A program made the position numbers and the translations under genes. A stretch of DNA of 64,000 bases, taken from positions 25,482,991 through 25,546,990 of the forward strand of contig CP136061.1 of NCBI GenBank assembly GCA_032622095.1, read 5' to 3'. Position 1 is the first letter of the stretch; every line of letters starts with the position of its first letter. The notes under the pieces are model-generated. The model made no database searches. It was not told where the DNA came from and was given only the letters and a program-made list of their open reading frames with translations. The stretch is from Siphonodentalium dalli (lineage: Eukaryota; Mollusca; Scaphopoda; Gadilida; Siphonodentaliidae). Shown here in pieces: positions 5,605 through 7,886 of the stretch.

Positions 5605-6592
5605 AATATCACATACAAGTTACCGGTACCAGCGTTACCTAACTGTACTCGAATATTACATACAAGTTATCGGTACCAGCGTTACCTAACTGTACTATAA
5701 TATCACATACAAGTTACCGGTACCAGCGTTACATAACTGTACTATAATATCACATACAAGTTATCGGTACCAGCGTTACCTAACTGTACTAAAATATCAC
5801 ATACAAGTTATCGGTACCAGCGTTACCTAACTGTACTATAATATCACATACAAGTTACCGGTACCAGCGTTACCTAACTGTACTAGAATATCACATACAA
5901 GTTACCGGTACCAGCGTTACCTAACTGTACTAGAATGTCACATACAAGTTACCGCTACCAGCGTTACCTAACTGTACTATAATATCACATACAAGTTACC
6001 GGTGCCAGCGTTACCTAACTGTACTCGAATATCACATACAAGTTACCGGTACCAGCGTTACCTAACTGTACTAGAATATCACATACAAGTTATCGGTACC
6101 AGCGTTACCTAACTGTACTATAATATCACATACAAGTTACCGGTACCAGCGTTACCTAACTGTACTAGAATATCACATACAAGTTACCGGTACCAGCGTT
6201 ACCTAACTGTACTAGAATATCACATACAAGTTATCGGTACCAGCGTTACCTAACTGTACTATAATATCACATACAAGTTACCGGTACCAGCGTTACCTAA
6301 CTGTACTATAATATCACATACAAGTTACCGGTACCAGCGTTACCTAACTGTACTATTATATCACATACAAGTTACCGGTACCAGCGTTACCTAACTGTAC
6401 TAGAACATCACATTCAAGTTACCGATACCGGCGTTACCTAACTGTACTATAATATCACATACAAGTTATCGGTACCAGCGTTACCTAACTCTACTAGAAT
6501 ATCACATGCAAGTGATCGGTACCCGCGGTAGCGAACTGTACTACAATATCACATGCAAGTTACAGATAACCGCGGTACCTAACTGTAATGAG
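5605..6592. repeat. Minisatellite block 1, 47-bp unit, about 21 copies
   Basis: Successive units start at 5605, 5652 and 5699, giving a 47-bp period. The consensus contains AATATCACATACAAGTTACC then GGTACCAGCGTTACCTAACT and GTACTAT. Common variants are T/C in the ACCGG/ATCGG position and the last bases of the unit. The final two units diverge (CCCGCGGTAGCG) and lead into a unique sequence, 6593-6660. Confidence 0.95.
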
Positions 6593-6996: not shown

Positions 6997-7453
6997 TGTA
7001 ACGGGAGAAGGGTGGAATGCGGGAGTCGCACCGAAAGTTGGCAGCACCCGAAATCTCAGGCCACCGGTCACCCATCCAAGTGCTAACCGGGCTCGACGTT
7101 GCTTAACTTCGGTGACGAGACAAGGCGTCTTAACCACTGGACCAAAGAAGCATGCTCCGTTGGATCTGTTGATTAATCGGCCTTCTATATTTACAACGCG
7201 ACCGCTACATTCCTCCCTTCCTCGTTTTGAGGTTCGGACGAGCCCCCAGTGTAACGGGAGAAGGGTGGAATGCGGGAGTCGCACCGAAAGTTGGCAACAC
7301 CCGAAATCTCAGGCCACCGGTCACCCATCCAAGTGCTAACCGTTGCTTAACTTCGGTGACGAGACAAGGCGTCTTAACCACTGGACCAAAGAAGCATGCT
7401 CCGTTGGTGCTGTTGATTAATCGGCCTTCTATATTTACAACGCGACCGCTACA
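6997..7453 (-). mobile_element. TRIM-type LTR element with 5S rRNA-like LTRs
   Basis: Two near-identical repeats, 6997-7209 (213 bp) and 7250-7453 (204 bp), enclose only 40 bp. On the minus strand each LTR starts TGTAGCGG and ends GTTACA. The 40-bp interior then reads, one base after the 5' LTR, TGGGGGCTCGTCCG, identical to the first 14 bases of a tRNA-Pro primer-binding site. It ends in a purine tract GAGGAAGGGAGGAA abutting the 3' LTR. CATG flanks both ends (6993-6996 and 7454-7457). There is no coding capacity, so this is a terminal-repeat retrotransposon in miniature. The right LTR lacks 9 bp (GGGCTCGAC) that are present in the left. The known comparison is Cassandra TRIMs of plants, which carry 5S sequence in their LTRs. 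Confidence 0.85.
7042..7120 (-). ncRNA. 5S rRNA-derived segment inside TRIM LTR
   Basis: The minus strand reads GAAGTTAAGCAACGTCGAGC, then CCGGTTAGCACTTGGATGGG and TGACC. These are the box A/intermediate element/box C region of 5S rRNA (compare GGAAGCTAAGC...GGTTAGTACTTGGATGGG), followed by a GGTGCT phrase near the 5S 3' end. Upstream in the same sense (about 7126-7143) is GGTCCAGTGGTTAAGACG, which resembles a tRNA box A region. The canonical 5S 5' strand is absent, so this is a derived promoter region and not a functional 5S gene. The other LTR has the same segment with the 9-bp deletion. Confidence 0.8.
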
Positions 7454-7615: not shown

Positions 7616-7886
7616 GACTTTAATCGAGGGCTGATTGGCGGTTTATATTTTTTCGTGAACTATGTATTGTGCCATTGCTCTATTCCGTTCACCACTGCTT
7701 ACGACCACTTTTTGAAACGCTTGTTTCGTGACCATTCCATGGTTTTTTTTTATTAACTTAACTGTGTCGACAGTCATTTCGATATCTTTATATGACGGTT
7801 TGTAAAACCCGGTATTTAATACCAGCATTAGGTTATGTAAGGCGTCACTAAATATATATATATATATATATACGTCACAAACACGC
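7616..7886 (+). promoter_or_regulatory. Upstream region of ZNF1, conserved among ZNF copies
   Basis: From ATCGAGGGCTGATTGG onward this matches 42907-43280 and 60355-60640 through phrases such as AACTATGTATTGTG and CTATTCCG...CACCACT. A conserved block before the start codon (GTCACAAACACGCATGGATT) is shared with ZNF2. In ZNF1 an (AT)n run (7852-7872) occupies the place of about 80 bp present upstream of the corresponding ATG in ZNF2. No clear TATA box can be told from the AT repeat. Confidence 0.5.
7852..7872. repeat. (AT)n microsatellite
   Basis: About ten AT dinucleotides, ending 14 bp before the ZNF1 start codon, just upstream of the conserved ACGTCACAAACACGC leader. Confidence 0.95.

Follow-up and report, generated by a model that had tools for sequence, protein, structure and literature searches.

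TRIMs, which are non-autonomous LTR retrotransposons, can carry promoters derived from small-RNA genes, and TRIMp3 has been proposed as a group name (PMC10886601). The same paper (Kojima 2024) describes the closest known system, Ajax (Ajax-1_NGe and Ajax-1_LiLo), a 5S-TRIM of 421−434 bp in two nemerteans with a tRNA-Leu primer and 5-bp target site duplications (TSDs), and gives box A, IE and box C as the 5S promoter motifs. In land plants, Cassandra has a methionine primer binding site (PBS; PMC10853983); according to PMC10886601, its 5S sequence contains conserved terminators and its RNA ends carry 18-bp duplications. Helenus, present in animals, fungi and Selaginella, is a TRIM with a tRNA promoter; its animal members have 4-bp TSDs and Gypsy-like PBS regions, with some tRNA-Pro primers in bivalves, and the SINE3 elements treated in the same source are LINE-dependent, without LTRs, PBS and polypurine tract (PPT) (PMC10886601). 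The passages of PMC12859917 on this subject only cite Ajax and Helenus. No animal 5S-TRIM other than Ajax was named in the titles and abstract openings listed by searches of the open literature. In the passages of two animal papers that matched "Cassandra", the word proved to belong to the first name of an author (PMC4244043) and to a cited reference (PMC5437419); it was absent from the main text of PMC3503869. Since Ajax is already published, the family described below is not the first animal 5S-TRIM.

The DNA analyzed here, a stretch of 64,000 nucleotides referred to as the window, contains an element at 6997−7453 on the minus strand, which we consider, with good confidence, to be a TRIM using a captured 5S rRNA-gene promoter. 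The original prediction had described two LTRs of 204−213 bp, a 40-bp interior with a tRNA-Pro-type primer site and a purine tract, and CATG flanks, and all of these parts were found in place. In the sense orientation, the order is CATG (7454−7457), a 204-bp 5′ LTR (7453−7250), the interior (7249−7210), a 213-bp 3′ LTR with TG...CA ends (7209−6997) and the second CATG (6993−6996), and the two LTRs are 98.5% identical over the ungapped columns. One base past the LTR, the interior opens with TGGGGGCTCGTCCG, whose complement is the 3′ end of tRNA-Pro plus CCA (a 14-nt PBS at 7235−7248), and it is closed by the PPT AGGAAGGGAGGAA (7210−7222). No stop-to-stop open reading frame of 150 a.a. or more overlapped the element in an ORF scan of the window. 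With paired LTRs, a PBS, a PPT, a length below 1000 bp, no coding capacity and a short integrase-type duplication, the element is a TRIM.

The window copy is not a typical member of its family. Its length is 457 bp, as compared with ~535 bp for the usual element, and its interior lacks ~69 bp relative to the common length of 109 bp; the interiors of 36 other copies measured 92−113 bp (one of them, L040_2, being unrelated sequence). The full-length LTRs of its subfamily are 213 bp long in 50 of 70 rows. The 40-bp interior and the 204-bp LTR thus reflect an internal deletion of ~69 bp and a 9-bp deletion within the 5S-derived segment of the 5′ LTR. The copy is probably dead, with a 5′ LTR that has probably lost the ability to initiate Pol III transcription; our argument concerns the family as a whole and does not depend on this copy. 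A stretch at 6500−6661 on the plus strand, tandemly duplicated upstream of the element in the same window, aligned with the joined flanks and carries a single CATG (6606−6609) with no element. This paralogous empty site, which has the same flanks except for 8 nt of the left one, reads as a pre-insertion site. The element lies at the edge of a 47-bp minisatellite array (window ~5590−6980; the spacing was computed for 6631−7006 and the remainder judged by eye). C2H2 zinc-finger ORFs and frame-shifted zinc-finger-like repeats were also seen by eye at 7806−8909, 10283−10891, 14017−14871 and 43167−45152.

The expectation of multiple genomic copies with paired LTRs and their own target duplications held: such copies, with 4-bp duplications, are scattered across the genome. 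A whole-element search yielded at least 79 matches (the best 40 of 1611 candidates scored). The window copy belongs to a subfamily that we designate A, and at least two further subfamilies, B and C, are present in the genome; a search from L059, by which B was reached, yielded at least 62 matches (the best 40 of 2000 candidates scored). The LTR/5S junction of subfamily A occurs at 143 genome sites (up to 3 mismatches) and the PPT−LTR junction at 58 (up to 2 mismatches), with no sites in the control searches, which for the former used the reversed pattern. Perfect 4-bp duplications flank 30 of the 36 A/C loci with both outer ends, against 15 of 1260 when flanks were paired across loci. Counted by distinct flank pairs, the figure is 27 of 33, and L042 and L057 likewise appear to be a single site that was duplicated. 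The 36 loci comprise 28 of the 39 first-fetched copies, the window copy, L057, L061, L062 and L071−L074; left out, with an outer LTR end truncated or missing, were L016, L018, L021, L023, L025, L026, L028, L033, L035, L037 and L040. An earlier count, in which L025 and L028 were scored as misses, gave a perfect 4-bp repeat in 25 of 31 and a perfect 5-bp repeat in 1 of 31, and L078 and L079 stand outside all counts. Of the 20 subfamily B loci fetched, 9 have 4-bp duplications; both ends are complete at 11 loci, which include all 9. At three of the 36 A/C loci, the 813-bp stretch retrieved contained just one LTR, and a perfect duplication was present at two of these. The LTR pairs within a copy are 94.0−100% identical (24 pairs), so some insertions are recent. 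Four other loci fetched (L060, L066, L069 and L070) contain no TRIM LTR. LTR−interior−LTR arrays with three or four LTRs were observed at L031 (A), L097 and L099 (B), and tandem arrays are also described for the zebrafish Helenus family LTR-11_DR (PMC10886601).

Each LTR was predicted to contain a 5S segment on the same strand, and an alignment with real 5S genes had been set beforehand as the test; the similarity persisted. The reference genes came from a genome search with the Rfam 5S model RF00001, which gave at least 47 matches (47 of 95498 first-look candidates scored). The 5S-derived stretch of the 3′ LTR (7046−7124, minus strand) is identical to the host 5S gene L007 at 67 of 75 positions, and that of the 5′ LTR (7299−7368, minus strand) at 58 of 66 with a 9-nt gap, the deletion lying inside the internal control region. 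The match covers approximately nucleotides 34−109 of the host 5S, counted from the first G, in the sense orientation. When the 5S gene L001 was used, none of 1000 dinucleotide shuffles reached the score of either LTR; the opposite orientation gave no signal (969 and 480 of 1000 shuffles reached the score). Within the stretch lies a 49-nt control region (host 5S 44−92; 7066−7114 in the 3′ LTR), which we take to cover box A, IE and box C, the exact box coordinates being assumed, and which leaves out the 5′ half of 5S.

For a comparison among subfamilies, we aligned the LTR rows of A (70 rows of 200−225 bp), B (44 rows of 180 bp or more) and C (5 rows) with L001 as the reference. In the control region, the column majorities match the host 5S at 48/49 positions in A and 49/49 in both B and C. 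Outside it, the majorities differ by 9−29%, agreeing at 121/160 columns between A and B, 111/157 between B and C, and 143/158 between A and C. The difference between inside and outside gave Fisher p values of 1.4e-4 (A−B), 7.7e-7 (B−C) and 0.13 (A−C, not significant by itself; the two are close, with 48/49 agreement inside the region), to be read with the rows being related, with columns rather than events treated as independent, and with C represented by 5 rows. Within subfamilies, identity inside and outside the segment was 97.7 and 98.7% in A and 94.4 and 97.2% in B, after CpG columns were removed. Since copies of one subfamily are no more alike in the segment than elsewhere in the LTR, a mutation cold spot is excluded; as the segment does not decay more slowly after insertion, the source elements were probably selected for it. 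Selection on source elements for the 5S promoter is the simplest reading, and we regard its conservation between subfamilies as strong sequence evidence of use. The nearly unchanged control region suggests that the TRIM is copied by Pol III, by analogy with Cassandra and Ajax, and Pol III transcription is likely.

The first 30 nt of the LTR, which contain the TATA-like stretch TTGTAAATATAGAA (7183−7196 of the 3′ LTR, minus strand; putative in function), are also identical among the three subfamily majorities (30/30). These 30 nt and the 5S promoter are what the three subfamilies in one genome keep best. Downstream of the control region, columns 147−183 agree between A and B at 31/35 positions, whereas C agrees with the two at 22/32 and 21/32. 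The TATA-like stretch sits ~26−39 nt upstream of the equivalent of the 5S +1, and an AT-rich stretch near −30 was seen by eye in two of the three host 5S gene types. Measured from the TATAGAA-type word, the distance at which the control region follows is 79 nt in 10 of 20 LTR rows, 80 in L075 and 78 in L076; among the eight older rows it is 77−78 in five and 61, 67 and 73 in the other three. In B elements, it is 77−80 in seven of eight, and the word is absent from L088.

The conserved 5′ end of the LTR is compatible with a Pol II TATA box as well, and the family might be an ordinary Pol II TRIM, in which this stretch drives transcription and the 5S segment is a passenger. The 30 invariant nucleotides around the TATA-like stretch are in its favor, as is the scarcity of Pol III terminators: TTTT runs occur in only 5 of 70 A and 4 of 44 B LTR rows. 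They are absent from 8/8 B elements and 9/13 A/C elements, where shuffles average 1.4−2.6, but the chance of zero TTTT in a B element is 5−12%, making the scarcity weak evidence when taken alone. The first TTTT in the 3′ flank lies 14−110 nt away in six of seven copies and was not found in one; in the window copy it lies at 1203 nt. With TTTT rare, the LTRs have no regular terminator, which counts against a tidy Pol III transcript end in the 3′ LTR; the same scarcity fits an unbroken Pol III transcript. A passenger, however, should drift like the remainder of the LTR. This segment is identical to host 5S at 49/49 positions in both B and C, although the two differ at 46 of the other 157 columns compared. 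Moreover, neither AATAAA nor ATTAAA occurs in any of 114 LTR rows (70 A, 44 B), and AATAAA is absent from 37 interiors. We thus regard the passenger explanation as improbable.

Similarly doubtful is membership in the published Ajax group, by the same origin and a changed helper. Ajax (421−434 bp, against 457 to ~540 bp here) is a TRIM of the same kind in an animal host (PMC10886601), with a 5S segment (box A, IE and box C, the promoter part only) in both LTRs, a PBS, a PPT and no proteins. The tRNA-Leu primer and 5-bp TSD nevertheless set Ajax apart from the tRNA-Pro primer and 4-bp TSD found here, and the two are apparently separate lineages of the same kind. The predicted independent or related 5S-TRIM lineage therefore stands, with a primer that differs from those of Cassandra and Ajax and a TSD length that differs from that of Ajax. 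The invertebrate host of the prediction is presumed: searches for two phylum markers, a molluscan haemocyanin domain (PF14830) and an arthropod cuticle domain (PF00379), gave 0 matches and, having no positive control, support no conclusion, and the 5S type may be lophotrochozoan. Like Cassandra, the family is a TRIM with a 5S promoter in both LTRs and a highly conserved promoter part; Cassandra itself is ruled out by the tRNA-Pro PBS, since its PBS is of the methionine type, and its conserved terminators contrast with the rare TTTT in the LTRs here. Helenus is likewise a TRIM with a small-RNA-gene promoter, and its animal members share 4-bp TSDs and, in bivalves, some tRNA-Pro primers, but it carries tRNA boxes A and B rather than 5S, and no conserved box A/B pair was seen here. 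ARAGORN called no tRNA in the window, and no tRNA family was among the cmscan matches in the window and five other loci. We also considered whether the part of the LTR that precedes the control region might represent tRNA boxes A and B, and dropped this reading because a box-A-like word present in A rows is missing from older rows in an alignment judged by eye. SINE3 elements share a 5S-derived promoter in a short non-autonomous element; they depend on LINEs and lack LTRs, a PBS and a PPT, and SINE3 identity is excluded here by the LTRs, PBS, PPT and 4-bp TSD. By its sequence, the family fits TRIMp3, as a small-RNA-gene-derived promoter is present in the LTR majorities of all three subfamilies.

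We also examined how much of the 5S gene is recognizable beyond the control region. The 5′ half of 5S has no detectable similarity in 8/8 rows (599−956 of 1000 shuffles reach the score), and a 5S origin for the LTR part upstream of the control region found no support in any of the eight. The tail 3′ of the control region is recognizable in 5/8 rows, including both A-type rows (0−2 of 1000 shuffles), and is lost in the C row tested (208/1000). At gathering thresholds, Rfam gave no match in the window; below them, cmscan with RF00001 scored 20.6 bits in the 3′ LTR segment, with many non-standard pairs, against a gathering score of 38, and five other TRIM loci gave one match, at L030 (21.9 bits). 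Given this score and these pairs, the LTR segment is not a 5S RNA gene. An alternative in which the segment functions not as a promoter but as RNA, through a 5S-like fold used in export or packaging, is very improbable, because although the recognizable tail would suit it, helices needing the absent 5′ half are unlikely to form, both Rfam scores fall below gathering with none in the other four loci, and the tail is gone from the C row. Scattered 5S-like matches in such genomes may be LTRs.

We then return to the primer of the presumed 5S-promoter TRIM. The predicted tRNA-Pro-type site was confirmed, and tRNA-Pro genes exist in the genome: ARAGORN called them in two of the loci fetched (L050 and L051), and the tRNA-Pro 3′ end occurs at 295 genome sites (up to 1 mismatch). 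The PBS complementarity extends to 18 nt in some related copies (L042, L053, L054, L057 and L061). The 4-bp duplications and the tRNA-Pro primer fit a Gypsy-type helper, by analogy with animal Helenus. L052 shares with the TRIM the LTR terminus, the 1-nt spacer and the full 18-nt PBS, and an ORF at this locus has a weak gag match (PF03732, E 0.0061, 17.2 bits versus a cut-off of 24.1). The 407 bp preceding its PBS have 14 matches genome-wide, only one of them on C1, so no second LTR was found near L052. L077, with two LTRs ~3 kb apart, is read as a TRIM copy into which an inverted-repeat element has inserted; inspection of its ORFs recognized no helper gene. A search for exact 18-nt PBS sequences, in which the terminus was not demanded and a non-G was required eight bases upstream, gave 27 places, 15 with the TRIM terminus type (some with one change) and 12 with others, such as TTACAAAA and CTACATTT. 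A complete helper element was not found at L052, among the L077 ORFs or in the PBS search; the shared primer site and LTR terminus suggest one.

In the proposed mechanism, TFIIIA, TFIIIC and TFIIIB would assemble on the internal control region of the 5S segment in the 5′ LTR. Pol III would initiate ~43 nt upstream of that region, at a predicted start near LTR position 53, and read through the interior into the 3′ LTR. The RNA would be copied with the tRNA-Pro primer and integrated with a 4-bp duplication, using proteins supplied in trans, most likely by a putative tRNA-Pro-primed Gypsy-type element. We lean, by a modest degree, toward a fuller reading: an animal TRIM would have captured the 5S promoter once more, independently of Ajax, with a control region that is letter-for-letter host 5S across subfamilies and apparently a TATA-like element at −30 whose spacing is almost constant. 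A complete 5S-type promoter would then feed Pol III RNA into Gypsy-type, tRNA-Pro-primed copying without a regular LTR terminator. The family suggests that miniature LTR elements have captured 5S sequence repeatedly, beyond plants and ribbon worms, and it makes it possible to test whether Pol III RNA can feed LTR retrotransposons.

Several other structures were noted in the genome. Beside an old TRIM copy, L053 997−1242 is a strongly palindromic, repeated stretch that matches mir-2513 on both strands, below the Rfam gathering score. At L056 1140−1947 (G000:C2 near 216065100; related to L060), two 367-bp direct repeats, 97% identical and with GTTACA at the end, flank a palindrome of ~75 bp built from the 3′ half of tRNA-Pro with its CCA, present in either orientation. 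This looks like a short LTR element with its primer tRNA copied into DNA. Finally, large arrays of the tRNA-Pro 3′ end, with a period often of ~1413 bp, occupy G000:C3 244762463−247378668, and tRNA-Pro and tRNA-Gly genes are interspersed in the two loci scanned.
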